Below, piece after piece: positions 16,114 through 50,905 of a stretch of DNA of 64,000 bases. The position numbers were made by a program, and so were the translations under genes. Source of the DNA: Haliclona indistincta (lineage: Eukaryota; Porifera; Demospongiae; Haplosclerida; Chalinidae); NCBI GenBank assembly GCA_964017065.1, contig OZ024783.1, forward strand, positions 17,893,752 to 17,957,751, written 5' to 3'. The notes below the pieces were generated by a model. The model was not told the origin of the DNA. It searched no databases and saw only the letters and a program-made list of their open reading frames with translations. Numbering within the stretch: position 1 is the first letter of the stretch; the number at the start of each line of letters is the position of its first letter.

Positions 16114-17082
16114 GCCTCTGACTGAGTGTGGTCAGTATGACCCACTGCAAGATGAACAGTTGACAGAGGCTCTTATGAAAGCTTATCAGCAGTTTAATAC
16201 TATCAGATCTTGTCAGGAGATGCTTCACCGCATCCCATCAGCTCCCTCAGGCTACTACCAGATAACTGCTCCCAATGGCTCACTAGTGCAGGTCTACTGT
16301 GACATGGAGGGGACCAACTGTGGAGGAGAAGGAGGGTGGATGAGAGTGGCCTATGTCAACATGTCACAGCCCGGTGCCATCTGCCCTCAGGGACTGACAA
16401 AGCGAATCCTCTCAGGACTGACTCTCTGTGGTAGAATGGATGGTGATTTTAATGTAACAACACCAATTAGTGGAGGATGTCAGAGCACAGTGTTCTCCAC
16501 ACTAGGACTAAACTCAGTACTCTCAAGTTTGCGGACAAGTACGAGGCTATCATTTTGGTACACCAGAAGCTTTCGAATCTTTTGATTTCGACCCATCTAT
16601 TGAAAGAACTTATGTTGATGGGGCTTCCATCACATATGGCAGTGCTCGTCGTAAACACATTTGGACTTATGCTGCTGGACGTAATCTTCGGATAGGTTCA
16701 ACAACGTGTCCTTGTAATACTGGCAATGGTCTCGATCCTCCTCCTTTTGTTGGTAGTGACTACTACTGTGAGACTGGAGACAATGATGACACTTGTTGTG
16801 ATTATAATCTTTTCTCTAATGATACACTATGGGATGGACAGCAATGTCCTGGTGTGGAGGCTCCCTGCTGTACTCACCCCAACATGCCGTGGTTCAACAA
16901 GGCACTCGGTGAGACCACCACTGAGGGCATTGAACTCAGTGGTGGTCTCACCGAGTTCAATGCCCTCAGTGAGAAAAGATATAGGACATAGAACGGATAT
17001 ATATAGAAGCGCCAAGTCTTTCGTTTTTGCAGGAAAAAATAAAACGCTAAAAGATTAGGGTTGGAGCCTACGAATTGCTTAT

Positions 17083-17650
17083 AAACTATTTTAAAGAAAA
17101 TTAAAAAGATTTCTATCGAAATCAAAAGGATGTAGGGTTGTGAAATCTACCACAGGTCTGCAATGTAAACTAACAAGGAACAAGCATGGGATGGTAACAC
17201 GATTGACTTGCTAACAGACCATAGATCCCTACATCAGTGGCTGTACATAAGCTGTCACAAGCTGCGGAATTTATATCGCCGTTTCGCTAAAAACTAAGTT
17301 CAAAAGGCACATGCCAGGAGAATTTCACGACTGTTCGTGGGTGTTTTGGTCTCGGCACTGCTTGCGTAAAGGCGCTAGGCGCACTGAAAAAGAAAGAAGA
17401 AGAGGAAGAAAACGAAGATGACGAAACTCGATTTTCACCGTTTCTAGGTTCGCCACTTTAGTAACAATTTCGAGCAATCTCCTTGCTACTGTAAGATGGA
17501 GCAACACCTAAGAGCAGATCTGAGTGTCTTTGGACAGACAAAATTCATCACCAGGCGAAATATCAGCGTTTGAACGCTAATACATTGTATGTAGCCGCCA
17601 TTTTGTCTTCTTGCTCATCCTACATAGGGAGTCACTACCGTGCCTCCCTA
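17083..17650 (+). repeat. Dispersed repeat R1, internally deleted copy
   Basis: One M1 arm (17090-17250) joined to the distal part of R1 (CGCTAAAAACTAAGTTCAAA through the terminal CTCCCTAATA hairpin). It lies immediately after the truncated 3' end of lectin-like copy A and upstream of copy B. Confidence 0.75.
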
Positions 17651-17944
17651 ATAGTGCAATCTGATTGGTCAGAATAGTCTTAGTATGGTATAATTAATTT
17701 TATGATATCTACTTAGAAAAGTACTTCCGAAGTGGTACTGAAAAATGTGCCTACCTACACGTAACTGCACTGGCGAGCAGTTCTTCGTTCAACGCTCGGT
17801 TTGACGCCATTATAAACATCAGTTCCTGTGTGAACGCAGCCAAATAGAGCGACAGTTACCCGCGCCGTGCTGGGCTGGCTTGCTTCACATGCCTGTTCCT
17901 TGTAGTACATACAGATATTGCCGTAACAGAACATCTTACTTATA

Positions 17945-18076
17945 CAAGGTATTTCCTGCAAATTGTTACTTAATCATTGCATTACATGACAACACCCATT
18001 ATGCTTGTCTGTTAATAGTATTAGTTCTTATTACATAAGTTTTTGATTCATTTCTGTGATACTGCGGTTAAGACAA
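17945..18076 (+). promoter_or_regulatory. Conserved upstream block of lectin-like copy B
   Basis: TTTCCTGCAAATTGTTACTT, TCATTGCATTACATGACAAC and TTACATAAGTTTTTGATTCA are repeated almost unchanged upstream of copies at 40885 and 46115 and partly at 6787, 36340 and 48656. Conservation close to the start codon across diverged copies suggests core promoter or 5' UTR, but recent duplication is an alternative explanation. Confidence 0.45.
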
Positions 18077-19066
18077 ATGGCAGCTAACCTTCTCTGTGTG
18101 CTGTTCTGCTACTACTGGCTACTGCTGGCTGGTGGTGTAGTGAGTGGGTTCACTCCAGTCATCTATCCTTCTAAAGTATCCTCTGAGTGTGGTCAGTATG
18201 ATCCACTGCAAGATGAACAGTTGACAGAGGCTCTTATGCTGGCTTATCAGCAGTTTACTCTTGGCAGATCTTGTCAGGAGATTCTTCGCCGTGTCCCATC
18301 AGCTCCCTCAGGCTACTACCAAGTAATTGCTCCCAATGGCTCACTAGTGCAAGTCTACTGTGACATGGAGGGAACCATCTGTGGAGGAGAGGGAGGCTGG
18401 ATGAGGGTGGCCTATGTCGACATGTCACAGCCCGGTGCCATCTGCCCTCAGGGACTGACACAGCGAATCCTCTCAGGACTGACTCTCTGTGGCAGAATGG
18501 GTGGTGATTTTAATGTAACAGTGGGGGGTGGTGGTGGATGTCAGAGCACAGTGTTCTCCACACTAGGACTGAACTACTCTCAAGTGTGTGGACAAGTACG
18601 AGGCTTTCAGCTTGGTACACCAGAAGGTTTTAATTTTAAGCCATCTGCATTTAATATTGACAAGGTTTATGTTGATGGGGTTTCCATCACATATGGTAGT
18701 GCTCCTCGCAAACACATTTGGACTTATGCTGCTGGACTTAATCTTTCGTCCGGTTCATCAACGTGTCCTTGTAATACTGGCAATGGTCACAATCCTCCCC
18801 CATTTGTTGGTAGTGACAACTACTGTGAGACTGGTGTCAATGATGAGACTTGTTGTGGGTACAGTCTAATCCGTAATGATCCACTATGGGATGGACAGCA
18901 ATGTCCTGGCATTGAGACTCCCTGTTGTTCTCACCCCGGAATGCCGTGGTTCAACAAGACACTCAATGAGACCACCACTGAGGACATTGAACTGAGACTG
19001 TGTGGTGACCAACATGCTACTGCTGAAGCCACTCCTCTTGAAGTGATTGAACTGTTTGTACGCTAG
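18077..19066 (+). CDS. Secreted FReD-like 'GGWMRVAY' protein, copy B (intact)
   Basis: Single-exon gene, 329 residues from ATG at 18077. Signal peptide 1-24 (MAANLLCVLFCYYWLLLAGG), a short conserved stretch SECGQYDPLQDEQLTEAL, then a fibrinogen-related/fibrillar-collagen-C-like fold: SGYYQVIAPNGSL, VYCDMEG, GGEGGWMRVAYVDMSQPG, DGVSITYGSAPRKHIWTYAA, a cysteine-rich segment with DGQQCPGIE, and the terminal block MPWFNKTLNETTTEDIELR with EVIELFVR at the end. About 20 cysteines imply a disulphide-rich extracellular protein; several N-glycosylation sequons (NGS, NMS, NVT, NYS, NLS, NKT, NET). Ligand unknown; recognition or adhesion is a family-level guess. It is the reference intact member for judging the disabled copies. 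Confidence 0.85.
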   Translation: MAANLLCVLFCYYWLLLAGGVVSGFTPVIYPSKVSSECGQYDPLQDEQLTEALMLAYQQFTLGRSCQEILRRVPSAPSGYYQVIAPNGSLVQVYCDMEGTICGGEGGWMRVAYVDMSQPGAICPQGLTQRILSGLTLCGRMGGDFNVTVGGGGGCQSTVFSTLGLNYSQVCGQVRGFQLGTPEGFNFKPSAFNIDKVYVDGVSITYGSAPRKHIWTYAAGLNLSSGSSTCPCNTGNGHNPPPFVGSDNYCETGVNDETCCGYSLIRNDPLWDGQQCPGIETPCCSHPGMPWFNKTLNETTTEDIELRLCGDQHATAEATPLEVIELFVR

Positions 19067-19313
19067 CTTTTAATTGTGCTTTCAGTGCTCATTTTCGCTT
19101 GTGGTAGATTGTAAATTTGGTCTTTATGTTAGCTCAACTGTAGTAAAACCTTTTTTATATTCACAAGTATAGTCGTCCTGAGCGCGTAGCGTGAGGGTGT
19201 CTATTTTGGTTTCGAAGGTGACATAAATATTTGTACGATTTCGGAGATGACATAAATAATTATATGTACAAGTTTTATACAATCATTGTATTATTGCCCG
19301 ACTTTTGTATAAG
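19067..19313 (+). other. 3' flank of copy B shared with copies D and E
   Basis: The sequence after the stop (TTTTAATTGTGCTTTCAGTG, TAAATTTGGTCTTTATGTTA, GTCGTCCTGAGCGCGTAGCG) recurs after 41874 and 47104. It therefore marks a duplicated unit larger than the gene. No AATAAA close to the stop was seen. Confidence 0.6.
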
Positions 19314-19486
19314 GTATTTATACCATTCTGCGCTCTCAGATAAGCTTCCCAAGACTACCAAGCATTGAAAAAAGCCCTCTACTGTTGTGAGAAGCCAGCT
19401 GAATCGTCATTTCCGCCGTGGAACAAAGCTCGTACAGTACGAGAGTGCATCGATTAAACTTGAAAGTTACCACTGATCTTTCAGCT
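19314..19486 (+). repeat. Dispersed repeat R2, copy 2
   Basis: Matches 47335-47530 closely and 4150-4350 partly. Ends at the 6-bp target site GTGTGA of the 12.5 kb transposon. Confidence 0.7.
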
Positions 19487-19822
19487 GTGTGATATGGAAC
19501 GCCAAATGCGACAGAATTAGCAGCAACCGTTAGTAATAATCAAAATCGATTTTGCTGGCGATAATCGATTCACAACTCGATTCACAACTCGTTAACCTAA
19601 TTATTATAATTATTAACATCATGCATCACGTGAGTAAAATTATGCACGCGCGCGCACAGGCCACGTGTACTATTTATAGCAGAGATTTTCGCTCGCAGAG
19701 CACAGTGGAAGCAGGATTGCTTAGAGCCGCGCTGAACGCAAGAAGTTCTGCTGTGAGATTGTCGCAGACCGAAGAAGTTGGAGCCGTGCAAAGTGACAGC
19801 TGTGATCCGGCTCAGTAACTTA

Positions 19823-22800
19823 ATGTCTTTGTCTATCGACAAACTTTCCAAAGCCCGCCGGGCTATAGAATACTTGTCATCGCTACGGATACCGCATTCC
19901 CAGGTAACTTGCATTAATATGTGACCTAATTGTTTATTAGAGCTTGTACAGCTTGTAACACAATGTGTCTATAACTGGTGATTGTATTTGCTTTGCATTG
20001 ACCTAGGTATTAACTGTAATGATATTCACCACCGAATCCAAGGTGTTTTAGCCAAAGCCTGCCCACTGTTGCACTAGGTATTAACTGTAATGATATTCAC
20101 TATCCAAGGTGTTGTAGCCAAAGCCTGCCCACTGTTGCAATCTGTCTTCAACACCTTCATTTGGGATGTGTATGTTGTGGTAGTTATTAAAAACTTTCCC
20201 TTTAGCAAGCTGGCCCAAGTCACAACTCAAGTGTTGGAGAGGGCAGCAGTGGTAGTGATCAGCAGCGAGCTGGCCCAAGTCGTGACTGGAGTGCTGGAGA
20301 GGGCAGCAGTGGTAGTGATCGGCAGCGAGCTGGCCCAAGTCGTGACTGGAGTGCTGGAGAGGGCAGCAGTGGTAGTGATCGGCAGCGAGCTGGCCCAAGT
20401 CGTGACTGGAGTGCTGGAGAGGGCAGCAGTGGTAGTGATCGGCAGCGAGCTGGCCCAAGTCGTGACTGGAGTGCTGGAGAGGGCAGCAGTGGTAGTGATC
20501 GGCAGCGAGCTGGCCCAAGTCGTGACTGGAGTGCTGGAGAGGGCAGCAGTGGTAGTGATCGGCAGCGAGCTGGCCCAAGTCGTGACTGGAGTGCTGGAGA
20601 GGGCAGCAGTGGTGGTGGCTGGAGTATCAGAGAGAATAAGCAAGATCGAAGTATGTGAATATCATTTCTAAATATATGTACAATGCTTTGCTTTCTTCTT
20701 TTAGTTTTGGATGCTGCAGACAAGGCCATCACTGCCTTGAGAAATGTCAGGTCAAGGAGTAGTTCTGCTGGACAAAAAAGAAAGGCAACCGTGAAGCAAG
20801 AAGTATCAGCGTTATTTCGGAAGAAGGGGAAGAACGTTTCCACTTGGAAGCATAGGTTTGTCTGCCTTGCAATCACAGATCAGGTAAAGATTCCAACAAC
20901 TGACTCTGAAAAAGATGGTCTAATGCAGGCTGGACTGGGAGAGAAGGTTTGTGAACTTACATTTTAATTCCTTGACACACAATGTTCTGCTATTGTTCAC
21001 AATACCGTAGATCGCATTATTTTAAATTTCACGAAGTATTCTTGGAATTTAAATGGCACAAATATTTGAGGTTGGTTGTTTTAGCCATATTTCCACTTGG
21101 CACGCGCAAAAATAGTTTTCATGAGGGCTCTGATTCGCCAAATATATTATCCGCAAAAATAATACGATCTACTGTTTTATGATGTGTACAGTGTGCTATA
21201 GAGAAGTTAGCATTATTTTTTTCATTAAGACATTGGAGTTTGATGACATGGACATGGACAGCAACCAATTCAGGGAACTAATTTTCGAAGCATACCCTCG
21301 GCTGCGGAATGGTGGTGGGTTTCAGTTCTTCAAATGTGCTCCTAATTCGAGGAACATGGAGCTGTTATCTCAAGTTGTGATGACGAGTCCACAACTTCTA
21401 AAAGAGAGAGTGGGGACTGCACGTACCTACATTAGACCACTTCAAAGAAACTTGGATTTGTCTGTTGCTTTTGATTTGCCAGAAGGGGTATGATCTGCAA
21501 TTATAATATTGATATAATAATTGTTGTGTTACAGCCCTTAGAGAAATGCTTAACCTGCTCAATGGAAGTCCCAATTGAGAAGCTAGTAGAACACATTAAG
21601 CATTGCCATTCAAGGTCAACATACTACATTCCTTATCACTGTTAGTATATGTAATTTTATTTAGTGAGTCAGATTCAGTCGAGTTGACTGATCCGGATCG
21701 CGAGAAGACCTATGAGAGTTTGATTGATGAGTAAGTAAACAATTATGTGTGTGCATTATGTTTTTTTATCAAACCAGTCCTTATGCATATGATCTGAGTC
21801 CTTATGCATATGATCGGAGTCCTTATGCTTATGATCTGAGTACTAGTGATGATGAACTTCCTGTTTTTGACTTGAATCAGAAGACCATCAAAAAGAGTCA
21901 GGTGCAAACTGAAAGGTTATTATTTATTTTTGTGACAATAATTATTCATCTTTATTCTGAAACAGCACACAGAAAGAAACCTGTTTACAGCAAGTAATGA
22001 GAAGGCTTACTGTTAAATCAGAAACTTTCCGCATTGAAGTTCGACGTGATTACGTTTTAGCGGATGCTATTAAAGAGGCTAGAAAGACCAAATTTGATGT
22101 TCAAAAGACCATCAAGGTACATTGCTTAATTTATATTTTTGCAAGATTATGATTGTAATTATTAGGTCAATTTTGTTGGTGAGAGTGCCATTGATCTGAG
22201 TGGCCCGAGAAGAGAATTTTTTAGAATTCTCGCTCAAGAATTTGCTAGCAGTTACCTAATAGGGCCTGATAACAATAAGTACATGCTGTCGAATGTGACT
22301 GCTTTACAGGTATAATGTAGGATTACTAAATTAGTTAGGATTACTAACTAATTTTTAGAACCAAGAGTACCATACAATGGGAATGTATACAGTCATGTCA
22401 ATTACACAAGGAGGATGTGGTCTGCCATGTCTATCTCAACCCTTCTTTGACTACTTAGTACGTGGCCAGTATACTGGCATCATTGACCGTATATCTCCTG
22501 CTAGCATCCCTAGCATGGATCTACGCTTCACTGTTGAAAAGGTAAATAATTTGTATAGTGGAGATTCTTGACTCATTAGTTTTGATTTCACAGGTGATAG
22601 AAGCTGAGACTAATGAAGAAATGAGACTGTATCTTCAAACAGACGAAGGAGAAAATCTGTTAAATGCAACTGGATATCGCAAACCAGTTTCTTCTACAAC
22701 TACAAAGGACAAAGAAAGTATTGTATCTGCTTTGGTGGACTATCATCTATTAATTAAGGTGAAAGCTGAAATGGACCAGCTAAAAACAGGATTAGCCTCT

Positions 22801-23596
22801 CTAGGATTTTTACAAGAGCTGCAATCTAATCCAAAACTGTGGGAGCCATATTTTATGGCAGTGCAAGATCCTCTGAATGCAGGTAATTTTTATAGGGTGA
22901 TTGTTTGTATTGTGGACATCCTGTCAGACATAATTGTCTGTCTAGCTTTGATAGTGGTCACAGCTGAATGGTGTTGGTTTTCACTCAGTGTGAATATCAT
23001 TAACTGCTACTTGAATTGCTGTGGTTTGGCTTGCAACAGCTATTATTGTCTGTGTCTAGTTTACATTATGTGAACTATAGACTATTGTAAAGATTTAGAA
23101 TGAAATTTACCACAGCAATAGCCCTAATTTCAGTATGCTACTGAAGGTGATTAATTTGTGTTCACTACTTCAGAGACTTTAAAACAAGTCTTCAAAATCG
23201 AGTTTTCTACTAAGGGGTCAAACTTAAGAAGTCGAGAGGAACAAGCGTATGTGTTTTTCTGTGATTTCCTGGACGAATGCGATGAAGGTATGCATAGTGA
23301 TTCTTAACGTTTAATAGAAAATGAAATAATAATTGTTTTCATTGTCAGAAAATTCTGAGTGCAAGTTAGAAGATGTTATGATTTTTTTTTCTGGTGCACG
23401 TGCTGTTCCACCGGTTGGATGGGGAGGAGGGGAAGTGCCTACTCTAACATTTCTATACTCACTAGAAGCCAAGTTCCCCACAGCGTCCACATGTGACATC
23501 ACTCTGCGGATACCAACTTCACACAAAGAATACACTGTGTTCAGAGAGCATATGATACTAGCTCTTAAAAGTAATGATGGGTTTGGAATGGTCTAG
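19823..23596 (+). CDS. HECT-type E3 ubiquitin ligase-like protein with C2HC finger, transposon cargo
   Basis: Thirteen exons whose phases all join to exactly 813 codons (812 residues): 19823-19903, 20206-20650, 20705-20946, 21230-21487, 21535-21614, 21665-21730, 21778-21915, 21966-22116, 22166-22309, 22359-22541, 22594-22882, 23174-23287, 23349-23596. N terminus MSLSIDKLSKARRAIEYL; then a Ser/Gly-rich array of 20-residue repeats; a basic segment (GQKRKATVKQE); a UBZ-like C2HC finger (CLTCSMEVPIEKLVEHIKHC, exon 5); an acidic stretch with PYAYD repeats; then a HECT-like region with N-lobe features (DLSGPRREFFRILAQE) and a C-lobe containing FFSGARAVPPVGW and the catalytic Cys context FPTASTCDITLRIP, ending GFGMV. 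This resembles G2E3-like HECT proteins. It could be active in ubiquitin transfer. Assignment of exon 1 is the least certain. Confidence 0.85.
20005..20140 (+). repeat. Tandem duplication in HECT intron 1
   Basis: CTAGGTATTAACTGTAATGA followed by ...CCAAGGTGTT(T/G)TAGCCAAAG and CCTGCCCACTGTTGCA occurs twice in a row (about 70 bp each), the second copy lacking a few bases. It is intronic in the gene model. Confidence 0.8.
20206..20625 (+). repeat. Coding minisatellite: seven 60-bp units in HECT exon 2
   Basis: Unit AGCTGGCCCAAGTCGTGACT plus GGAGTGCTGGAGAGGGCAGC plus AGTGGTAGTGATCGGCAGCG, seven copies with the middle ones identical. All six frames stay open, so frame choice matters. The splice phases of the flanking exons select the frame RAGPSRDWSAGEGSSGSDRQ, a hydrophilic linker typical of disordered regions, instead of the hydrophobic alternatives. 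Copy number is probably variable. Confidence 0.85.
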
Positions 23597-23661
23597 ACCA
23601 TTTTCAATCCGTCATTATTCAGACTGTTGATTTCAAGCCATCATTACATGAAACATCTTTA

Positions 23662-26181
23662 TTATTCATTAACATGGTTGTACAAGTACGATTTGGCAGT
23701 AGAAAATAAACGTAGCATGTGCAACTGAGAAAATGCTTGGTCTTCAAGTCTAGCTAACTGTACTTGCAAATCTTGTCTTTGTTCATCTGTTAGCAATTCT
23801 TCAAGCTCTGGCACAGTCACTGCATCATCATCATCAAGTGCAACAGGACCTTCATAATCTACACCATAGTCATTCCAGTCAGCCTATAAAAATACACAAT
23901 CATCACAGTGTGTCCACCTCATGTACACAATTAGTCTAGCGCGCTATGACCCTCTCCCGCAAAAGAAAAAAAGGGGGCGGGTCAGATGCGGGATAGGGTA
24001 CGTCTAGCCAAACTCGCAAGATGATTAGTTTCATTACCCGAATTTCGGGTAATGTTATTCACGGTATTATTACGTCAACATACTTCCTCTGTCACAGAAT
24101 AAACATGGCGGCCGTTCTTGCATAGTGTAGAAATGCAATCGACACGCTGTGACGAGCTACTACAGTGCAATAACGCCATTGCACGCTCTCTCTGGGCTAT
24201 CAAATCTTGCGCCTCTTCGGAAAGACGTTGTTAGTGCAGTTCTCGGTGGAAGAGAGACTTTCTTCGACTCAGGCGTGGTATGGCAAGTCTCTAGTCTTTA
24301 TGATATTACCACGGGGTGCCTAGTTCACTTTGGAGGCTGTGGGATACGAGCCTGCTGCAAACCGCTTCTGCAAATCGTCGTAGAAGCGCAGTACCTGCAG
24401 ATCGCTGCCATCATTTGTCGTAGCGCGTTTACGTGACAATTGCATTTACGTCTGTTGACGTAATAATACCGTGAATAACATTACCCGAAATTCGGGTAAT
24501 GAAACTAATCATCTTGCGAGTTTGGCTAGACCCTCTACCGCACTTGGCCCCTCCCCTTTTTCTTTCGCGGTAGAGGGTCATAGCGCGCTAGACTAGTACA
24601 CAATATACCATAAACATGTGAGGCAAGTTAGGTCATTCAAGCATATACTGTGTGGATTCCTTGTTATAAATAGGAAGTTTAGGGAATCTTGCAACATTGC
24701 CTAGTTTTGTGTCAAACTGCACCATGGTGCAAGATTCCCTAAAATTCTTGTATACAAATGAAACTAGGTATGAGGGAAAGTGCATAATTGTGGTTAATTA
24801 GCAACTAATCCCAAGGCCCACACACAATGTTTCATGGCTCCACCCATCCACTGAGGCATAACAAGTAATGACAGCACTATAATTATACTCTTATGGTAAC
24901 AGGAATGTTTAGTGACTTGAATGAATGAATATACAATTAACTCACACTTAAGCCAGTGACTGCTTCATCTCCTGGATTCAAATCACTGTATTGTTGTAGG
25001 CCGACAATCCATAACTGGAGGGGAGTTTTGTTTTTTTCCGTCCGTAGAGAATGGTTTGCCCAACCTTGACGAAACATGTCTAAGTGACATTGAATGATAG
25101 GAATGAACACAAAATGAAGGGCATACATATCCCGGACATCTTCGATATTTAGAAGGTTGAGATCTTCGAGAGAATAGAACAGCGAGTAAAAGAAGCTTAT
25201 ACACCCAGCATGAACATCTCTCCACAGTCTCTCAATACGCTGGTTGTGAGTACTCTTGCCAGTAATAGCACTTCCCCTTCCGGGACCACGTTCACTATGA
25301 TTAAGCATGTAACGTACAACCTCAACATTTTCACCTCCTCTGTCCATTCTCACACGTGAAGGAAGGCCAAATTCATCAACTGCTTGCAAAAAAGCATTAA
25401 CCACTGTTGAAGATCGATTATTAGGGCTCACTTTCAAATACGTAATCAAACGGCTATAGCCATCGATGCCACCATGAACAACCAGCCGCCAGCGGATTAA
25501 CTTGTGATGACCATCAATGTGCCAGAGAGCATTTGGTGACTTAACCATGTACTTTCTTCGTTGTAATACTCTTCTGCATCTCTCATGAATACCATCTGGA
25601 TCAACTCTTTTCATGGAATCCCTGATTCGTTGCCGGCAGACTCTGACACCAGCACTTTGCAACCTGCCTTTAACACTCTTTTCACCACAATGAGGAAAAA
25701 AATTAGTGATTTCTTTAACAGCTGAATCCAATTGTGCATCACTAACATACACGCTCCAGTGGCTGAGACCAAACTTTTTCATTCTACGCTCTATTGTTCT
25801 CCTACTACATCCAAGTATGCCACTAATATCCTTTGTACGAAAACCATTTTCAACAAGGTAACTCAACTGCTCTACATCAAGATCTAACTGAGGTCGTCCA
25901 ACGCTTCTTTGCACCCTTTCTTGTTCAGTCTCGTGTACCACAACATGAGCAAGACAGCGAATAGCATCTATGCAATCATCATGGCCATTTCCGGGACCAC
26001 CCAGTAGTAACACAGCATATTGCAAAACTTGTTCCATAAGGCTTACAATATCTTCTTCTACATCTGGCTCCAACCCTTCTTCTTCTTCACAACAATGCCT
26101 AACGTAGGCAATCACATGTTCTGCAAACTCGTAAAAAACTTGTAATTCGTCTTCTAAGTCTTGATCCTGGCCACCTGCCAT
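23662..26181 (-). CDS. DDE integrase-core transposase of the 12.5 kb element
   Basis: Two exons: 24946-26181 (start [19 protein letters not shown]) and 23662-23883 ([20 protein letters not shown] ... YLYNHVNE, stop), joined in phase 0 to 485 residues. The polyadenylation signal AATAAA overlaps the stop (complement of 23658-23663). Domains: acidic N region; helix-turn-helix at about 95-140 ([33 protein letters not shown]); retroviral-type integrase core with Asp223 (WHIDGHHK), Asp280 (RMDRGGEN) and Glu317 ([10 protein letters not shown]), a DD36E spacing; and a conserved C-terminal PLQLWI motif. The intron holds a TA-flanked palindrome (23934-24593). The gene is convergent with the HECT gene; their 3' ends are only about 65 bp apart. 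All catalytic residues are intact, so the element may have been recently active. Confidence 0.88.
23934..24593. mobile_element. 660-bp palindromic MITE with TA target duplication
   Basis: Arms of about 150 bp starting GTCTAGCGCGCTATGACCCT and containing CATTACCCGAATTTCGGGTA, mirrored at 24435-24593. Flanked by TA on both sides (23932-23933, 24594-24595), which is the target of Tc1/mariner-like elements. It sits in the intron of the DDE transposase gene. The loop contains a promoter-like CATGGCGGCCG stretch but no recognised gene. Confidence 0.8.
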
Positions 26182-26392
26182 AATGGAATGTCACGTGACA
26201 ATGCACGTGACACAACATGCTCCCAAATTAATTAACGTTTTGTAGGCGTGGTCAAGAGAGCAGTGTTCGAGTGCTAGCGCTGCTGCGCTGAGAGCTAGAG
26301 CTAGCTAGAGAGCTCAGGAGCTAGAGTAGTCAGGCGTTTTACATCACGTTTTTAGTAGATTCATAACTGATACTGCAATCTGATCGGATTGC
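26182..26392. other. Upstream region of the DDE transposase gene
   Basis: Divergent of the transposase start. It contains GTAGGCGTGGTC, whose complement appears close to the right end of the element (about 31838-31850), so it may be the original subterminal promoter region. AGCT-rich tract at 26284-26330. Confidence 0.4.
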
Positions 26393-27380
26393 AACAATCA
26401 TAACTTGTGTTTGTATATACATTATACTGTCTGTTTATCAGCCAGAACACAACATATTTCTCTCACACACCTATCACACACAATCTCTCAGTTGTGCTAG
26501 CATGTCAATCATTCAGTGATACAATGCATGGGTTGCTATGGTGATGATGACAATCTCAACAAATAATATTTCTATGCACCTTGTATCGTACGTGTTTTGT
26601 GTCACTCTAATCCGTATCACTTGTCTAGTAACTTATTGACTCTACCATAGATGATACTATGTAACCAGTGTTAGAAACAGTCATACTCTTCCAGTGTATT
26701 ATGTGATGTCATGTTTTGCTGGATAGAGCTGTTCTCAGCACGATTATCAGCTAGTGTGTATTATGATTTTCTGAGACAAGGCACAGAATGCATACAGTGT
26801 ATTTGTCCATGATTACTGTTCTAAGTATATTGTGTTTGATGTTTAGCAAAGGACAACGGAGGAGAGTTAGTTTGAGTACATTCACTCCATTGTCTGCTTT
26901 GTTTATTATGTAGCCAAGGGACTGATGTTCGTATGTGCATTAATGTTTGTTTAATTTTGTGCAATGCCTTGACAGTCTCTGTATGTGAGTGTAAAGCTGT
27001 TCTCCAGCTCTGTGTTTTATGAACCTATTCATCGCGTCACACACTGTTGTGACTGTACATGTGTGTCAGTCACTCATTTTCAACTGTTTAAGAGCAGATT
27101 TTTTGCTATTACTTGTCGTTGTGTGCAGGTTATGAATTATTATTTTTCCCTCTCTTCACACAACACAGGAGGCTGAGCTGTCTGTCGTCAGATATTATGC
27201 ATGATTACCATCTGATGGGTGTATTACATAAACCTGATAAAGACTATGTTGCTGTGACTTTTATTGATTGTTAATCTGTTCAATGATTGTGTTTTAGTCA
27301 TAAAATGATTTCAAAAGTACACAAGCCATGGCATGGTACTACTGCAGACTAGAGTTAATAACCAGCTTGCAGGTCAGTGA
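26393..27380 (+). repeat. Left arm of a long inverted repeat inside the 12.5 kb element
   Basis: Pairs with 30070-31560 in inverted orientation. Matched blocks include ATCATAACTTGTGTTTGTA with ATACTGTCTG, CAATGCATGGGTTGCTATGG, GTTTTGCTGGATAGAGCTGT, and CAAGCCATGGCATGGTACTA near the inner end. Arms are diverged by several percent with indels. No gene recognised in the arm. Confidence 0.75.
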
Positions 27381-28522
27381 GCGGATTGCTACTGACAACT
27401 GCACAATGTGATATCACAAATATAATAGGGACGAGGACATACACAGCAGCACTATTATGATTGTATAGTATTCCACTGCTATTGTAAATTGATCCACAGC
27501 TGCACATGCTGCATGCACGAGGATGTTCCACTACAACTATGGTCTGCATGCATGCACTATGAAAATTTCGACTCATGATCACTGCTGTTGCCAGCCTAAA
27601 AATACTGCTGCAGAGCACCATTTCGGGTATACAGCCGGGTCACCTGCAGTCATAGGTGCACTGTGAAAGTAAGGATTTCACTGTTGCTAGCCTGATTCCA
27701 TTTTACATAGAAATATCGCTAAAACCATGATTTAGAGCTCGCCGGTTGACATTCACTATGAAGTATGGTTTAGAATTTCACTGCTATTGCTAGTCTGATA
27801 CCACTGCAGAGAGGGATTTCACCAAAATCATGCAGGGCCTTGCCTAAAGCTCGCCTCAGCGTGCGCTGTATGAGTCTAAGGTGCACCATGTACATCTATT
27901 AGTAACTGTTGCTATTGTCGGCTATCACTACACCTGGCCTGCAGAGAGGCTCCATGTGCATGCAATTCACAAACTAGCTAGGGGCTATAATGCCAGTAAC
28001 ATAATGCCCATAATTATAGCTCACTATTGTAGAATGCACTGAGCTCGTGCCTATACCCACACAGTACAGTGTAGTGGCTAAACCCTAAACCCTGACATAT
28101 AGACCGGTTTAGGCTATGTGCTAACAAGGATTATCATTATATTTATTATATAGTGCTTGCAATTCAGAACGACTATACAGCTGGTGAGGTGACCTGTAGA
28201 ATCTAGTTTAATAATTTCTCTACATCAGGCTGACAACAGTGCACTGTGCTGCTGGTGATAATGTCCCCGCTACTATGCTGCTAGTAATAATCTGTGCTGC
28301 TATAGTAATAATGTATCTACTATTGTGCTGATATATCTAGTAATAGTGTGTCTCTACTATTGTCTGCTATCTAGTATAATAGTGTCTCCACAACTGTGCT
28401 GCACTGGGCAGCTCTATATATTCTATAGTTAGTGGAACTTCTCTCTGCAGTGGATCAAGATCACATTACAGTAACAGAGTGTAATGTTGTGCTAGTATAC
28501 TATGTAACTGATGTAAATCCAC
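27381..28522. other. Non-coding interior between inverted arm and LINE fragment
   Basis: AT-rich sequence with many short imperfect repeats of CACTGCTATTGCTAG-type and GTGCTGCT-type phrases. I see no gene and no known element. Confidence 0.35.
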
Positions 28523-30105
28523 CATATTATTATTATTATTATTATTATTATTAAAAGATTTACAACAATAATACACATGAAGGAAGATAAATTCAAGTTT
28601 GAGGTATACTAGGATAAGTGATTTATTGTTGAGGGCTATCACCATACTTGTTGGTGTAGCCATCTAAATAGAAACACAAGATGAACACGGACAGACAAAA
28701 TGATAAGTACAGATTAAATCAGGATTGAATGAATCAAAAAATTGTTCCCATAGGAATGATACAATAGTACGCTTCAAAGAGAAGAAAGAGGCTGTGTTTA
28801 TGTCCAAATGAGGAAGTTTGTTCCATAAGCGAGCGATTCGATTAAAGTAGAAATGTCTGGTTGTGGTAAAACGGGAGATGTTATGATTGAGTTTACTAGC
28901 ATGTGCCGCTCTAGTAGATGAGTTAGAGAAAGATATGAAAGAAGCCAAGTCAAAATTATCAGCGGTTCTTTGATATGCTTGATTAAATAAAGATTATCAA
29001 GTAGTTCATACCATCTCATAGGTGGAAACAGGTGGAGTTTGATGAGTCTGGTTTTGTAGTTGGAACTGTAATCATTTAAGATGAACTTAGTGGCTCTTCT
29101 TTGAACTCTTTCCAAACATACTATGTCTTTAATCAAAAGTGGCCTCCAAAGCTGGGAGCAATAAGAAAGTTTACTACGGACCAAGGTTAGATATAGATTG
29201 AGACGCACTGTAGTAGTGGATGTGTTAGTAGAGATGGTTCTACGAATCAAGTGTAATGACCTGTAGGCTGATGCACATATATTGCCAAAGTGTTCTGACC
29301 AAGATAGGCTACTAGTTGTTGTAACACCAAGATCTTTGTGACTATGAACAGTCGAATTGCTTGACCATTGACAGTATATGTTGATGATGGTGAAGAGAGA
29401 AGCGTATATTGCTGCACATTTAATTTCTTACTGTTTAGAGAGAGTTTCCATTTTGAACACCATGAGTGAAGTGTATCAAGGTCTTGTTGGATATGGGTGG
29501 TCTTTGAACATCGGTCAATTACTTCCATAAACTTGGTGTCATCAGCAAACAGGTAAGATGTGCTATAAGAGATTATATTAGGGATATCATTTACATAGAG
29601 AAGAAATAATAAAGGACCTAAGACACTGCCTTGTGGAACGCCTGATTTAACAGGAAGGACAGAAGATGAGGAACCTTCAACATAAACAAAGTGAGTACGG
29701 TTTGAAAGGTAAGACTGAAACCAACTGACCAGTTATTCCATGAGCCCACAGTTTGAAAAGTAGTTCAGGATGTGGTATAGAGTCAAATGCTTTTCGAAAG
29801 TCTAAAAATATGACGTCACAGGGAATTCTGCGGTCAACAGAGGAGAAAATTTCGGAGTAGAAGGATAGGAGCTGGTTTACAGATGACCTTTTCCTTAAGA
29901 AACCAAATTGTTGTGAAGAAACTTGTGGAATAACAAAATCAATGATTTTATCATAGATGATAGTTTCCAGAAGTTTTGCAAAGAAGTGAAATTGGACGAT
30001 AGTTTCGGACATCAGAAGGATCAGAACCTTTCGTCGCATGATGCATGTGTCGTCACTGCAGTGGTCTAGCAATCTCACTGACCTGCATGCTACAAGCTAG
30101 TTACA
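28523..30105 (-). pseudogene. 5'-truncated non-LTR retrotransposon (LINE) reverse transcriptase fragment
   Basis: Minus-strand reverse transcriptase in several frames: KLLETIIYDKIIDFVIPQVS, SQQFGFLRKRSSVNQLL, FLDFRKAFDSIPHPELLFKL (RT domain, the FxKAFD block), a further segment with PQGSVLGPL and a FADDT box near 29530-29620, then the downstream SKLSYCSQLWRPL / ERVQRRATKFIL region typical of CR1/Jockey-like ORF2 C termini. Frameshifts and stops make it dead. The 3' tail is an (AAT)n run (complement of 28527-28553), as many LINEs have. It sits in the loop between the inverted arms. Confidence 0.8.
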
Positions 30106-31560
30106 ATAATGATAGTACCATGCCATGGCTTGAGTACTTTGAGTACATACTTTTATAATCATCATTATGACTGAAACACAATCATTCAACAGATGAACAA
30201 ATAATTATTAATGATAATAAAATCATTGTCACATAGTATGTGTGTCTTCAGTTCTTGACACTTGTCAGCATAATACACGTTCATCTGATGATAGCTCCTG
30301 TGTTATGAAGAAAGGAAAATAATTTATTCACCTCATACTGTCACTATAATGATGGCAACTAATAACACAACAATTATAGTACTATGGCATACAGTGAAGA
30401 AGCGCTTCCAAATCAAGCGACCAACTACAACACATTATCAACTCTTTAGAATAAACATCACCATTACTTAGAGACAGACACAAGCATGTACAGTGTGTGA
30501 CGGGAGTAGTAATCACTGAGCACAATAAAACACTTAGCAATACTATGTAAACCGGGATTATAAACAGAGATGTGCAGATAGATGTTTCAATAATGTGACA
30601 TCATAATACAAATGCACAATTATATAGTGCTAATACAATCAAACAAGAATAATGGAAAGTTACTAGCTATTAGACAAATATTTAGTAGCTATAAACAGCC
30701 TCCATAGAGGGGTTGTTTTAGGCGGAGTGTTGACGTCACATCATTTTGGCGGCAATTTTGAATTACAACTTAGTAAACACACTAGCTGATAATCGTGCTG
30801 AGAACAGCTCTATCCAGCAAAACATGACGTCACATAATACACTGGAAGAGTATGACTGTTTCTAACACTGGTTACATAGTATCATCTATGGTGGTAGAGT
30901 CAATAAGTTACTAGACAAGTGATACGGATTAGAGTGACACAAAACACGAGACAAGGTGCATAGAAATATTATTTGAGATTGCCGTCATCACCATAGCAAC
31001 CCATGCATTGTATCAGTGAATGATTGACATGTTAGCACAACTGAGGTAATGTAAGAGATTGTGTGGAATAGGTGTGAGAGAAATATGTGTGTTCCGGCTG
31101 ATAAACAGATCTGAGACATAATTTTAAGCTACCCATAGGTCTGCTTACATGTAACTGACAGAGCCACAGGTTAATACTATCACACAGAGACACGTACAGG
31201 CACTTACAGTAGTTATAATGCTGAATGCATGCTATATCATGAGCCTATCATCTAACAGAGGCAGCTAACAGAGACGTACTTGCAGCACACACATACTCGC
31301 AGCACCTGATCGATCACTAGTGTATAGACCATGCCCACAAGTCCACAACGTGAGAGGAAAGCACGGAGATTCAATTGGTGCATCATAATACTTTTTTCAA
31401 GCTATACAAAAGGAAGGAGAATTTGCAAGGAAGAAAGATTGGCAGTTTTTTCACTACATGTACATATAAAGACACAAAAGTACTCTGAATTGGATCTATA
31501 CTGCCCACACAGCGCAACATGACCAGACAGTATAATATGTACAAACACAAGTTATGATAC
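30070..31560 (-). repeat. Right arm of the long inverted repeat
   Basis: Inverted partner of 26393-27380. It is longer because of about 400 bp (31110-31510) that has no counterpart in the left arm, either an insertion here or a deletion there. Confidence 0.75.
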
Positions 31561-31988
31561 TAACCCGACAGTCAGTGCAATGCGCACGTAGCTAGCCTGA
31601 CAATACAACTGTTGAAAACGCGCTATTACTCACATCAGTCAGGCTCTGAGTAGTGTCAGCTCGCTGTCATAGCCAGAGAAACAGATACAAACATTGTGCT
31701 CTCCATATCATCTAGTCAGGTAGGCTTATCTCTATCCATCTCGATAGTCTAGTAGCCTTGATCAAGTAGCAACACTGCACTGACTGAGGTCGCCATTTTA
31801 CTTGACCGCGCCTCTACAGACACGCCCTATAGCCGTCGACCACGCCTACAATTTTGAATTTGGCGCACAAAATGACAATAATCGATTAGCAAATCGATTT
31901 GCGAATCGATTATCGCAAGCAAAATTGATTTTGATTATTACTAGCGGTTGCTGCTACTTTTGTCGCATTTGGCGTTCCATAGTGTGAC

Positions 31989-32170
31989 TATGGAGCGCCA
32001 AATGGGACAGAATTCGAGTTTATTTTCCGATCGATTCGATCGTCGATTTTTGATCTTCGATTCGATTGTCGTTCTTCAATTCAATCGCAGATTATCGATT
32101 TTTGATCCGTTTGATTCGATTGTCGATCTTCGATTATCCATTTTTGATCTAGGATTCGGTCGCCGATTTT
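31989..32170 (+). mobile_element. End of a second, related transposon adjoining the 12.5 kb element
   Basis: Begins TATGGAGCGCCAAATGGGAC, differing at two positions from the 12.5 kb element's terminus, and is followed by repeated TCGATTTTTGATC phrases. The same start occurs at about 47535. The big transposon therefore inserted one base outside the tip of an older relative. The other end of this relative was not found in the window. Confidence 0.6.
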
Positions 32171-32618
32171 TGCACTAGGCAGCAAACTAAGCGCCGTTTA
32201 TCACGCTATTTGTATGTTTGCGCCATTTCGGGTGGCTTGCTGGTACAAGAACGGTGCCTATTTTCCCTCCGGGTAAGTCGTAATCAAAAGGGGTTTCGGT
32301 GCATAATGTGAATTCTTATTCCCAGTACACACCTCTACCTCGGTTTAGACCACAGCTAAGCGATGTTGACCAATCAGGAAGCGTAGCTGTGGGTCTCTGA
32401 GCTCATAATGGAATCCCGCCACTGCCACGACCTCATACGATCCCCGGCACCACACGGGACAGATTACGGTTTTGTGCGCTGAGTTCTATTGAATAATTTT
32501 AACAGCGCTCGCGTGTCTTTACTCGTCGTTCGCGTCGTTTCTATTTGCTATTGCTAGCGCTATGGTCTAAATTACTTAGACAGCGCATCCAATCGGATCT
32601 ACGTGGTGTAGAAGCCCT
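32171..32618 (+). repeat. Duplicated non-coding segment (partner 42110-42580)
   Basis: Closely matches 42110-42580 (GCACTAGGCAGCAAACTAAG, CAGCTAAGCGATGTTGACCA, CCGGCACCACACGG). It belongs to the large unit downstream of copies B and D. No gene recognised. Confidence 0.7.
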
Positions 32619-36030: not shown

Positions 36031-36339
36031 CACTATTATTATAACTATTTAAAAGTGTATAACATTATTCTTTGTCCTCTCTCAAAATTGTAAAAATAAT
36101 CTTTCTAATAGCAGGGGCGTATCTACAAGTGTGCTTTTAGTTAGTTATCAAGCACCCATTAGCAAAAAATTGCTATGCAAACAGTTGATATGTCATTAAC
36201 ATTAATTACATCTTGCTCATACTAGATAGTTACTGCAAAATGTTAAATGATCATTGCATTACATGACAACATCCTGTAAGCTCTATTAGGTCTTAATATT
36301 ACATAAGTTTTTGATTCATTTGTGTGGTGCTGTTGACAA

Positions 36340-37329
36340 ATGGCAGCTATTCTTCTCTGTGTGCTGTCCTTCTACTACTGGCTACTGCTGGCTGGTGGTG
36401 TAGTGAGTGGGTTCACTCCAGTCACCTATCCTGCTAGAGTATCCTCTGAGTGTGATCAGTATGACCCACTGCAAGATGAACAGTTGACAGAGGCTCTTAT
36501 GCTGGCTTATCAGCAGTTTAATTCTATCAGATCTTGTCAGGAGATGCTTCACCGCGTCCCATCAGCTCCCTCAGGCTACTACCAGATAACTGCTCCCAAT
36601 GGCTCACTAGTACAGGTCTACTGTGACGTGGAGGGGACCAACTGTGGAGGAGAGGGAGGCTGGATGAGAGTGGCCTATGTCAACATGTCACAGCCCGGTG
36701 CCATCTGCTCTCAGGGACTGACAAAGCGAACCCTCTCAGGACTGACTCTCTGTGGTAGAATGGATGGTGATTTTAATGTAACAACACCAATTAGTGGAGG
36801 ATGTCAGAGCACAGTGTTCTCCACACTAGGACAAAACTACTCTCAAGTTTGCGGACAAGTATGAGGCTATCAGCTTGGTACACCAGAAGCTTTCGAATCT
36901 TTTGATTTTGACCCATCTATTGAAAGAACTTATGTTGATGGGGCTTCCATCACATATGGCAGTGCTCGTCGCAAACACATTTGGACTTATGCTGCTGGAC
37001 GTAATCTTCGGACAGGTTCAACAACGTGTCCTTGTAATACTGGCAATGGTCTCGATCCTCCTCCTTTTGTTGGTAGTGACTACTACTGTGAGACTGGTGA
37101 CAATGATGTCACTTGTTGTGATTATAATCTTTTCTCTAATGATACACTATGGGATGGACAGCAATGTCCTGGTGTGGAGGCTCCCTGCTGTACTCACCCC
37201 AACATGCCGTGGTTCAACAAGACACTTGGTGAGACCACCACTGAAGACATTGAACTGAGAGTGTGTGGCTATGGATCAGCTACCAATGAAGCCACTCCTC
37301 TTGAAGTGATTGAACTGTTTGTACACTAG
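36340..37329 (+). pseudogene. FReD-like copy C, single nonsense mutation
   Basis: Full-length copy with start, signal peptide (MAAILLCVLSFYYWLLLAGG) and normal terminus (EVIELFVH, stop at 37329), but codon 175 is TGA where intact copies have CGA (…CAAGTATGAGGCT versus CAAGTACGAGGCT), a CpG transition. The frame downstream is perfectly preserved to the natural stop, so the lesion is recent or tolerated by readthrough. The predicted product ends just after SQVCGQV, losing the C-terminal half. Closest relative is copy A. Flanked upstream by the SRP54 pseudogene. Confidence 0.9.
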
Positions 37330-38100
37330 CTATTAATTGTGCTTGGCTCATTTCGCTTGTTGTACTTGCAAAAACATGTTAATTAGATGTAGTAAAACAT
37401 TGTTGTATGTTCATCAGACTATAATGACATGTTGTTTATTTTAATATTGGCACAATGTGGCTGTAACTGTAAGAAAAGATATTAGTGTAATTTCTTCACT
37501 CTCATAAGTTTTTAGCTGCCCGGCAGTGTTCCTAACGGCTGCTTTACATTGTGACGTGATTGCTTGCACTGCGTTGCTGTTTTGTCACCAATTATCATTG
37601 AGTCTCGTTATTTGCAGAGATTCGACTGGGTCAAAGGTCACTAAATTAACCCCTCGTGTGGTCGGTGAAAGGCTGACTTCGCGGGAATTTTGAACGGGAA
37701 ACGAAAGCGTGTACTAGCGTATACACTCTCACTGATTTGAGAACTTCTTTGAGTCACAGCCACAGGTGTCAACTAGCTACACACAGAGAGGACTACATAC
37801 ACACGTGTAAACGGTACCGTACGATCAGGGTTATTACTCATTTCACCCGGTTTGAAACGACTACGTCACGTGCAAAAGCCCCCTTCGGGGGCTTATTTCA
37901 TCTACATGAGCGCGCGTACTGAATCACTATAAAGCCTTGTTTGTAGCAACGGTTGGTAGGGTTTCCACACAAAAAAATTAACTTCCACGAAATCAGCTTT
38001 TCGGCGTCTTAGTATGTACACCAACTTCCTGGTACAAACTTCGCAATCCAAAACTTCTTCGATCCTGCAAAAAAAACAGCTTTAAACTCTGACCGCAATC
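37330..38100. other. Intergenic, no gene recognised
   Basis: 3' flank of copy C and AT-rich sequence. A short inverted repeat GCCCCCTTCGGGGGC lies at about 37877-37892. Otherwise I see nothing. Confidence 0.35.
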
Positions 38101-40434: not shown

Positions 40435-40884
40435 ATATATCTACTACAGGCATACATGTACATCTTTATGACTGATGATGAAATGTTACTTTTGCACACA
40501 AACTTTTATTCCTCATAATAATTGTTATTCAAAACAACAAGCTCTTCAGTCATAATCATTATAGGGCATGCAGTTTTCGTTGGCTTGTTATTTCGTCTTA
40601 GGAGAGTTTAAAATGATGTTTTTGTCTTAGAACAATTTTGTATCGAGACAAAAACCGTCGATCAAATTTTGTACTCGGTAGGACAAAATTCGTCATTCAC
40701 TTTTATCCTAGAACATTTGCTGAATTTTGTCACATGATACAAATGAATTTCCTTGCATAACAGATATCGCCGTAACAGAACATCTTACTTATACAAGGTA
40801 TTTCCTGCAAATTGTTACTTAATCATTGCATTACATGACAACAAGTTTTTGATTCATTAATTTTGTGTGATACTGTTAAGACAA

Positions 40885-41874: not shown

Positions 41875-41989
41875 CGTTTTAATTGTGCTTTCAGTGCTCA
41901 TTTCGCAAGGTCAAGTTGTAAATTTGGTCTTTATGTTAGCTCAACTGTAGTAAAACCTTTTTTATTATTCACAAGTATAGGCGTCCTGA

Positions 41990-45235: not shown

Positions 45236-45693
45236 TGATTGGTCACGTGCGTATTACGTATTCACAATAATGGCGTCAAACACTTAGCTGACAACTGTTC
45301 GTGATCGTGAACTCGTCTCTTTTCGCTAAAAACTAAGTTCAAAAGGCACATGCCAGGAGAATTTCACGACTAGTGTTCGTGGGTTTTTGGTCTCGGCACT
45401 GCTTGCGTAAAGGCGCTAGGCGCACTGAAAAAGAAAGAAGAAGAGGAAGAAAACGAAGATGACGAAACTCGATTTTCACTGTTTCCAGGTTCGTCACTTT
45501 AGTAACAATTTCGAGCAATCTCCTTGCTACTGTAAGATGGGGCAACACCTGAGAGCAGATCTAAGTGTCTTTGGACGTAGAAAATTCATTACCATGCGAA
45601 ATATCAGCGTTTGAACGCTAATGCATTGTATGTAGCCGCCATTTTGTTTTCTTGCTCATCTCTACATAGGGAGTCACTACCGTGCCTCCCTAA
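45236..45693 (+). repeat. Dispersed repeat R1, partial copy
   Basis: From the TTGGTCACGTGCGTATT block to the CCTCCCTAATAG end. Nearly identical to 17283-17655, including the following TGCAATCTGATTGGTCAGAA, so it was duplicated together with copies B and E. Confidence 0.75.
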
Positions 45694-46114
45694 TAGTGCA
45701 ATCTGATTGGTCAGAATAGTCTTAGTATGGTATAATTAATTTTATGATATCTACTTAGAAAAGTACTTCCGAAGTGGTAAAAACGTGCCTACCTACACGT
45801 AACTGCACCGGCGAGCAGTTCTTCGTTCAACGCTTGGTTTGACGCCAGTATAACCATCAGTTCCTGTGTGAACGCAGACAAATAGAGCGACAGTTACCAG
45901 CGCCGTGCTGGGCTGGCTTGCTTCACATGCCTGTTCCTTGTAGCACATACAGATATCGCCGTAACAGAACATCTTACTTGTAAAAGGTATTTCCTGCAAA
46001 TTGTTACTTAATCATTGCATTACATGACAACACCCATTATGCTTGTCTGTTAATAGTATTAGTTCTTATTACATAAGTTTTTGATTCATTTCTGTGATAC
46101 TGCGGTTAAGACAA

Positions 46115-47104
46115 ATGGCAGCTAACCTTCTCTGTGTGCTGTTCTGCTACTACTGGCTACTGCTGGCTGGTGGTGTAGTGAGTGGGTTCACTCCAGTCAC
46201 CTATCCTTCTAAAGTATCCTCTGAGTGTGGTCAGTATGATCCACTGCAAGATGAACAGTTGACAGAGGCTCTTATGCAGGCTTATCAGCAGTTGACTCTT
46301 GGCAGATCTTGTCAGGAGATTCTTCACCGTGTCCCATCAGCTCCTTCAGGTTACTACCAGATAATTGCTCCCAATGGCTCACTAGTGCAAGTCTACTGTG
46401 ACATGGAGGGAACCAACTGTGGAGGAGAGGGAGGCTGGATGAGAGTGGCCTATGTCGACATGTCACAGCCCGGTGCCACCTGCCCTCTGGGACTGACACA
46501 GCGAACCCTCTCAGGACTGACTCTCTATGGTAGAATGGGTGGTGATTTTAATGTAACAACACAAAAAGGTGGTGGATGTCAGAGCACAGTGTTCTCCACA
46601 CTAGGACTGAACTACTCTCAATTGTGTGGACAATTACGAGGCTTTCAGCTTGGTACACCAGAAGGTTTTAATTTTAAGCCATCTGCATTTAATATTGACA
46701 AGGTTTATGTTGATGGGGCTTCCATCACATATGGTAGTGCTCCTCGCAAACACATTTGGACTTATGCTGCTGGACTTAATCTTTCGTCCGGTTCATCAAC
46801 GTGTCCTTGTAATACTGGAAATGGTCACAATCCTCCTCCATTTGTTGGTAGTGACAATTACTGTGAGACTGGAGACAATGATGAGACTTGTTGTATGTAT
46901 AGTTTAATCCGTAATGATCCACTATGGGATGGACAGCAATGTCCTGGTATTGAGGCTCCCTGTTGTTCTCACCCCGGAATGCCGTGGTTCAACAAGACAC
47001 TCAATGAGACCGCCACTGAGGACATTGAACTGAGACTGTGTGGTGACCAATCTGCTAGTGCTGAAGCCACTCCTCTTGAAGTGATTGAACTGTTTGTACG
47101 CTAG
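46115..47104 (+). CDS. Secreted FReD-like protein, copy E (intact frame, one lost cysteine)
   Basis: 329 residues. Near twin of copy B, with the same 5' region for more than 450 bp upstream. Signal peptide 1-24, SGYYQI at 78-83, VYCDMEG at 93-99, GGEGGWMRVAYV at 103-114. Residue 138 is Tyr (GLTLYGRM) where other copies have Cys (GLTLCGRM), a TGT to TAT change that should leave a partner cysteine unpaired. Also QLCGQLRGF in place of QVCGQVRGF. The open frame, shared promoter block and intact terminus argue that it is still expressed; the cysteine loss may affect folding or be an early step of decay. Confidence 0.82.
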   Translation: MAANLLCVLFCYYWLLLAGGVVSGFTPVTYPSKVSSECGQYDPLQDEQLTEALMQAYQQLTLGRSCQEILHRVPSAPSGYYQIIAPNGSLVQVYCDMEGTNCGGEGGWMRVAYVDMSQPGATCPLGLTQRTLSGLTLYGRMGGDFNVTTQKGGGCQSTVFSTLGLNYSQLCGQLRGFQLGTPEGFNFKPSAFNIDKVYVDGASITYGSAPRKHIWTYAAGLNLSSGSSTCPCNTGNGHNPPPFVGSDNYCETGDNDETCCMYSLIRNDPLWDGQQCPGIEAPCCSHPGMPWFNKTLNETATEDIELRLCGDQSASAEATPLEVIELFVR

Positions 47105-47334
47105 CTTTTATTTGTGCTTTCAGGGCTCATTTCGCTTGTGGTAGATTGTAAATTTGGTCTTTATGTTAGCTCAACTGTAGTAAAATTTCTTTTATATTCA
47201 CAAGTATATGCGTCTTGAGCGCATAGCGTGAGGGTGTCTACTTCGGTTTCAAAGGTGACATAAATATATGTACGGTTTCGAGAAGGTGACATAAATATAT
47301 GTACAAGTTTTATACAATCATCGTATTATTGCCC

Positions 47335-47540
47335 GACTTTTTGTATAAGGTATTTATACCATTCTGCGCTCTCAGATACTTAAGTCAAGTTCCCAAGACT
47401 ACAAGCATTGAAAAAGCCCTCTACTGTTGTGAGAAGCCAGCTGAATCGTCATTTCCGCAGTGGAACTAAGCTCGTATAGTACAAGAGTGCATCGCTTGAA
47501 CTTGAAAGTTACCACTGATCTTTCAGCTGTGTGACTATGG
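47335..47540 (+). repeat. Dispersed repeat R2, copy 3, with intact target of the 12.5 kb element
   Basis: Parallels 19314-19492 and continues CAGCTGTGTGACTATGGAGC without interruption, providing the empty site for the transposon at 19493-31981. Confidence 0.8.
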
Positions 47541-47561
47541 AGCGCCAAATGGGACATAATT

Positions 47562-50433: not shown

Positions 50434-50905
50434 TAATAATTATAAATGCAGTAGAAACATAATTAGCGATACATGCAAAAACTCATTTTCACACATGAGT
50501 AGCCACCATCTTAATTCGAGATCATTCTTACTTATCAATTGCCGATTGGCAATTTATAAGCGCTTATACATGAGATGCACCTAATAAGCGCAAGTATATT
50601 GAGTGCTGCAGCAAAACATGCTGAGTAACGTCACTAAAATTTTTTAAGTATGATTTTTCAAATACACAATGTACGTGTTAAATTTTTGGAAGTTAATACA
50701 TGTATGTACATCAATAATTGGTGTCCTATTTGTTATATTACAAGATGCTGCATATTTTAGGACAGCAACTGACTTGGATCTGTCTAGTGTGAACATCTTA
50801 TACAAGATTTTTCCTGAAAAGTTTTATTTGATCATTGCTTTACATGACAACATCCTCTCAGCTTATAATAATTATTTTATTTGCAAGTTTTTACTGTTAA
50901 CACAA

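Follow-up and report, generated by a model that had tools for sequence, protein, structure and literature searches.

A two-gene transposon in Haliclona indistincta

We analyzed a 64,000-nucleotide stretch of the genome of the sponge Haliclona indistincta (contig OZ024783.1; hereafter the window), in which a DNA transposon (19493-31981, 12.5 kb including nested insertions) carries a gene for a HECT-type E3 ubiquitin ligase beside a gene for a D,D,E transposase. An earlier note, made from the sequence letters alone, had described such an element, and its structural account was borne out. The inverted ends (19493..19591 on the plus strand and 31883..31981 on the minus strand), which it had put at about 80 bp, are 99 nt long and 89% complementary; both start with TATGGAACGCCAAATGCGACA, and the left one, reading TATGGAACGCC..., holds a subterminal CGATT/AATCG array. 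The 6-bp target-site duplication GTGTGA that it had called perfect is indeed matched on both sides (19487..19492 and 31982..31987). The left flank of the element lies inside a duplicated segment (17282-19518 versus 45321-47561, 94.6% alike), and the uninterrupted target expected at about 47525-47544 was found in the paralogous region (45321..47561, plus strand), where the joined flanks align through GTGTGAC at 47529 without the element; the right flank of this empty site is short (about 33 bp), the alignment ending at 47561. The HECT gene lies between the ends, as claimed, and the predicted pair of convergent spliced genes of 812 and 485 residues, each with its key residues, was confirmed.

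The HECT ligase gene (19823..23596, plus strand) comprises 13 exons with GT..AG borders throughout and encodes 812 amino acids; the exon structures of both genes were read from the DNA alone. Exons 8-13 (21966..23596) encode a HECT domain (Pfam PF00632, E 6.9e-11, 42.8 bits against a curated cut-off of 23.9) with the catalytic cysteine, Cys779, in the motif FPTASTC (codon at 23492..23494). Solved HECT domains are matched only weakly (best E 2.8e-6), which would suit a protein that is no longer catalytic and serves as a ubiquitin-binding adaptor. Against such a loss, which we consider very unlikely, the alignment to AREL1 covers both lobes, the cysteine is also present in L007/L071, L016/L073, L019, L020, L028/L072 and L030 (relatives elsewhere in the genome), and the surrounding S-T-C motif is kept in the C-lobes of all four other families compared. 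The protein is a predicted E3 ubiquitin ligase with its catalytic residues retained.

Ahead of the HECT domain, exons 3-4 (20705..21487, plus strand) encode a conserved N-terminal domain, for which a profile search among solved sequences returned no convincing relative; the model of a homologue, P0123, suggests a ubiquitin-like (beta-grasp) fold. Exon 5 (21535..21614, plus strand) encodes a C2HC zinc-finger pattern, C-x2-C-x11-H-x3-C (residues 347-366), whose spacing was seen in all five sequences checked. This is the spacing of UBZ4 (RAD18-type) fingers, but no Pfam model reported such a finger here, which makes it at most a candidate UBZ4. Exon 2 (20206..20650, plus strand) contains in-frame 60-bp tandem repeats coding a 20-amino-acid unit. 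A copy of the gene on C3, described below, aligns to part of these repeats only, and in the relative P0149 a different short repeat occurs close to the N-terminus.

The transposase gene is convergent with the HECT gene and has two exons joined at GT..AG borders, the first (24946..26181, minus strand) encoding a helix-turn-helix-like part and the integrase core with D223, D280 and E317, and the second (23662..23883, minus strand) the C-terminal tail of the 485-residue product. The core, which has an integrase fold, matches the rva_4 integrase core (PF24764) with E 7.1e-81 and 271 bits, and its three acidic residues are invariant across 42 aligned sequences, the window transposase included; the N-terminus is modelled as helical, and its helix-turn-helix-like match lies below the cut-off. 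As published, IS3EU elements terminate in TA..TA and in most cases are flanked by 6-bp duplications (PMC10045372). Their transposases are further marked by the lack of an HHCC zinc motif upstream of the core. The termini TATGG...CCATA occur in the window element and at two further loci, L072 and L073. A 6-bp duplication accompanies one of these three elements with both ends known, that of the window, and no matching one was found at L072 or L073. By its ends, its duplication and its integrase-type transposase, the window element is an IS3EU-type DNA transposon, as first proposed.

Two insertions are nested in the element. A 664-bp piece resembling a miniature inverted-repeat transposable element, with a 9-bp duplication GTACACAAT, sits inside the transposase intron (23932..24595), and a 4.7-kb long inverted-repeat structure (26430..31109; arms of about 330 bp, 91%) holds a fragmentary reverse transcriptase. 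Parts of the latter are common to a copy of the right end on C5, so that the structure is older than that split. Given these nested insertions, the core two-gene element is nearer 7 kb, like that at L072 (7.85 kb).

Recurrence and correlated divergence of the gene pair

Relatives of both proteins recur in the same genome, with at least 83 transposase matches in at least 50 clusters and at least 80 HECT matches in at least 41 clusters, all of these counts being lower bounds. A HECT match lies within 3 kb of 21 of the 50 transposase clusters and within 5 kb of 22. Such neighbourhoods might be an artefact of unrelated elements piling up in transposon-rich regions, and both kinds of match do cluster on C3 and C4, while 19 of the 41 HECT clusters have no transposase within 5 kb. 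However, when the HECT clusters were shifted by 50-1000 kb within contigs in 2000 trials, the mean number of neighbours fell to 0.30 (3 kb) and 0.44 (5 kb), with maxima of 4 and 5, against the 22 seen, nearly all of which (21) are within 3 kb. The divergence of the two partners is also correlated (below), and in the window element and at L072 a single pair of ends encloses the two genes. We therefore reject crowding as an extremely improbable source of the pairing.

HECT was detected in 14 of 30 transposase loci of 3.5-4.2 kb (13 of 29 excluding the window) and in none of the 30 reversed loci; one of the 14, L014, reached only E 0.005 within these loci and is backed by the genome-wide HECT matches. 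Two more clusters, L015 and L030, carry a HECT piece within 1.5 kb that is missing from the genome-wide match list. Near-identical duplicate clusters exist (for example, C3:15.3-15.4 Mb, and C8:1.85 and 2.02 Mb) and reduce the number of independent pairs; among 27 distinct transposase rows, 16 were HECT-positive, and three of the 11 negatives are short contigs from the bin of a sponge symbiont. L072 represents a complete second family, in which 305-bp inverted repeats with perfect ends enclose a convergent transposase and HECT gene. L073, with ends, transposase and a match to the last HECT exon only, looks like a deletion derivative.

The convergent order described in the earlier note holds for the window and is not universal. 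Sorted from coordinates for part of the 22 pairs, the orientations are convergent in the window and at C8:6.68, C8:1.85, C3:15.3, C6:3.26, C1:16.29 and C3:10.99, collinear at C5:6.87, C4:7.97, C4:6.14, C4:6.16 and C4:9.67, and divergent at C3:5.23, C7:4.82 and C3:10.89. Separately, Pfam HECT matches at C3:6743087 and C5:9420548 lie about 15 kb from the HECT-negative loci L026 and L025, respectively, in mirror-image order, which could mean that the flanks are duplicated or that the HECT partner there has diverged further.

For the nine elements with an available HECT N-terminal piece, pairwise distances calculated for this domain were correlated with those of the transposase (r 0.857, 0 of 20,000 permutations; C8:6.68 entered with about 60 residues only), and remained so after one of each of two close pairs had been removed (n=7, r 0.815, 5 of 5040). 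HECT-positive rows occupy two parts of the transposase tree. Eight HECT-negative rows (L021, L022, L025, L027, L034, L035, L075 and L076), which include two short contigs, group as a separate clade with support 0.966; L011 and L012 are HECT-negative rows placed among positive ones, and the remaining negative, L074, is a short contig. The tree, which has no outgroup, would fit either gain or loss of HECT. Related families appear to live without the ligase, and the pair itself looks old and co-inherited; it probably constitutes a stable lineage of two genes, the ligase being auxiliary.

Searching the genome with the ends of the window element returned five matches, namely the two window ends, C3:11211848, C5:10370397 and C5:10399780. 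The C3 copy retains the left end and, with 95-98% DNA identity, exons 1-11 of the HECT gene; it is interrupted by 6.5-kb and 0.6-kb insertions and has no match beyond; no transposase was found in the 15 kb read there. At C5:10370397 the right end is present together with some of the right half, with neither gene in 16 kb, and C5:10399780 was covered by its 3.1-kb locus only. The possibility raised in the earlier note, that other copies of the ends always lack the HECT gene, is not borne out: the C3 copy carries it, and HECT relatives recur beside transposase relatives.

The earlier note had regarded the HECT gene as cargo. Gene capture by DNA transposons is known, and no copy of this family other than the window element was seen to have the two ends and the two genes together, as might be the case if a host gene had recently been caught by chance between the ends. 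But HECT recurs beside divergent transposases and diverges in step with them, and among the top 30 Pfam HECT loci of the genome six match this protein weakly and 24 not at all (E 0.01). A recent capture is therefore rejected as highly improbable, and the term cargo, which suggests a recent passenger, needs correction. Host HECT genes, considered separately as a source, were also discarded, none of the same 30 loci having a transposase within 1.5 kb.

Not every cluster is paired: within 5 kb, 28 of the 50 transposase clusters, like the 19 HECT clusters mentioned above, have no partner. Between the window gene and the broken C3 copy 27 differences lie in altered codons and three in silent ones, which speaks against recent constraint; the repeat exon accounts for 14 of these 30 differences.

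Relatives were also sought in other collections. A viral contig collection contained no relative of the transposase. In a genome contig collection, three short contigs encoding the transposase (L074, L075 and L076) belong to a bin named as the Cycloclasticus symbiont of a Poecilosclerida sponge; they have no HECT match, which at their short length does not weigh against the pair, and are probably host contamination of the bin. In a protein database, among the best-sharing candidates, we found a single relative of the HECT protein alone, and 39 by alignment, nearly all short (10-28% of the query). For the transposase these candidates gave 1970 relatives, and the organisms named among the 120 listed are Amphimedon queenslandica and Porites lobata. 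Four contigs of other assemblies give a hint, and only that, of carrying relatives of both proteins.

CGATT/AATCG arrays are dense inside the ends of the window element (19493-19692 and 31782-31981), in a neighbouring end (31989-32188) and in the ends of L073, at 25-85 per kb compared with 1.5 per kb in the window, and are possible transposase binding sites. As a signature of the lineage they were tried and rejected, being absent from L072, L011, L020 and L034; the L072 ends have a different iterated motif. The neighbouring end begins with TATGGAGCGCCAAATGGGACA (31989..32009, plus strand), which resembles the end of a related family and starts at 47536 in the empty paralogue. On C3 the same end recurs at a distance of about 1.4 kb from L011, a transposase relative, so the window element apparently inserted a single base away from a relative's end. 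This may reflect chance or target preference, and a single case does not allow a conclusion about target choice.

The insertion lies directly behind one copy of a family of similar genes in tandem, about 84-96% alike in DNA (16122-16939, 18047-19066, 36208-37364, 40760-42044, 46085-47104, 50797-51953 and 54653-55663); the one member scanned had no Pfam match. Elsewhere in the window are the integrase core (rve) of a retrotransposon-like element (13633-14343, minus strand), with another open stretch at 12858-13589, and a 625-residue open frame matching the POT peptide transporter family (263-2140), with a second partial copy at 2627-3196.

Possible roles of the ligase

Taking together what the sequences display, that is, the structure of the element, the recurrence of the pair, its correlated divergence and the catalytic residues kept in both proteins, the best explanation, in which we have good confidence, is an IS3EU-type lineage that commonly carries a D,D,E transposase and a HECT E3 ligase with an N-terminal domain and a C2HC finger. 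The integrase-fold transposase would cut and join the TATGG...CCATA ends. The ligase would act as an auxiliary nuclear protein, its N-terminal domain and finger finding a target on or near the element DNA, and would ubiquitinate that target so that transposition succeeds.

With its catalytic residues the transposase is equipped for the chemistry, and related families appear to live without the ligase, which leaves the ligase as a helper or a brake. E3 ligases often lower the level of their partner, and the existence of HECT-free families means that the ligase is not required; it might thus be an antagonist, a self-limiting brake that degrades excess transposase. Nothing in the observations separates a brake from a booster, but long retention of a brake would be less expected for a selfish element, and we regard this role as unlikely. 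For an auxiliary ligase, the modifying enzymes of fungal IS3EU elements (below) favour by analogy a host factor as the target, and we infer, at somewhat less than even chance, a host silencing, sensing or repair factor. An action on host ubiquitin pathways, as suggested in the earlier note, is likewise inferred. The transposase complex itself, turned over or dismantled after strand transfer, comes second and is possible but rather doubtful, and some other target is less likely again. It is tempting to speculate, though we do so tentatively, that an animal transposon lineage has a dedicated E3 ligase, co-evolved with its transposase, which removes or reprograms a host restraint, that is, a counter-defence via ubiquitin.

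Comparison with known systems

None of the 35 papers of the searched library that mention IS3EU also mentions HECT, and literature searches on transposons in connection with HECT or ubiquitin yielded no relevant paper among the matches listed; Repbase entries and most subscription journals were outside their scope. Within the literature so searched, IS3EU-type ends and duplications are known and a HECT gene in such a lineage is apparently undescribed. Gene catalogues are also affected, since a good share of the HECT-like genes of this type in such genomes belong to transposons, 22 of the 41 clusters lying within 5 kb of a transposase. The protein resembles the HECT E3 ligases E6AP, TOM1 and AREL1 in its two-lobed domain and in a C-lobe cysteine in a P-T/S-x-x-T-C context, and differs from them in being transposon-encoded and in an N-terminal domain without a convincing solved relative.

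The IS3EU/GingerRoot superfamily shares the TA..TA ends, the usual 6-bp duplications and a D,D,E transposase with the window lineage, which in addition carries a HECT gene; that text mentions neither HECT nor ubiquitin (PMC10045372). RAG1-RAG2 and related transposons (PMC4411706) are likewise two-gene transposons with a lasting transposase partner, but both the transposase superfamily and the partner differ, and the RAG partner belongs to the recombinase. The TET-carrying IS3EU elements of fungi have TAYGG..CCRTA ends, inverted repeats >30 bp and 6-bp duplications, and their extra enzyme genes encode a TET/JBP dioxygenase and an alpha-kinase, the latter opposite to the transposase (PMC12730594). 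That paper proposes that the dioxygenases help in escape from methylation-based silencing, and its text has no mention of HECT or ubiquitin; where the fungal elements have a dioxygenase and a kinase, the window lineage has a ubiquitin ligase. The fungal TET genes pass between superfamilies, whereas here the divergence of HECT follows that of the transposase. When eukaryotic DNA transposons carry additional genes, these are often regarded as passengers or as acquired late; in this lineage a protein-modifying enzyme stays beside its transposase through deep divergence, which makes testable the question of what a cut-and-paste transposon gains from a ubiquitin ligase of its own.
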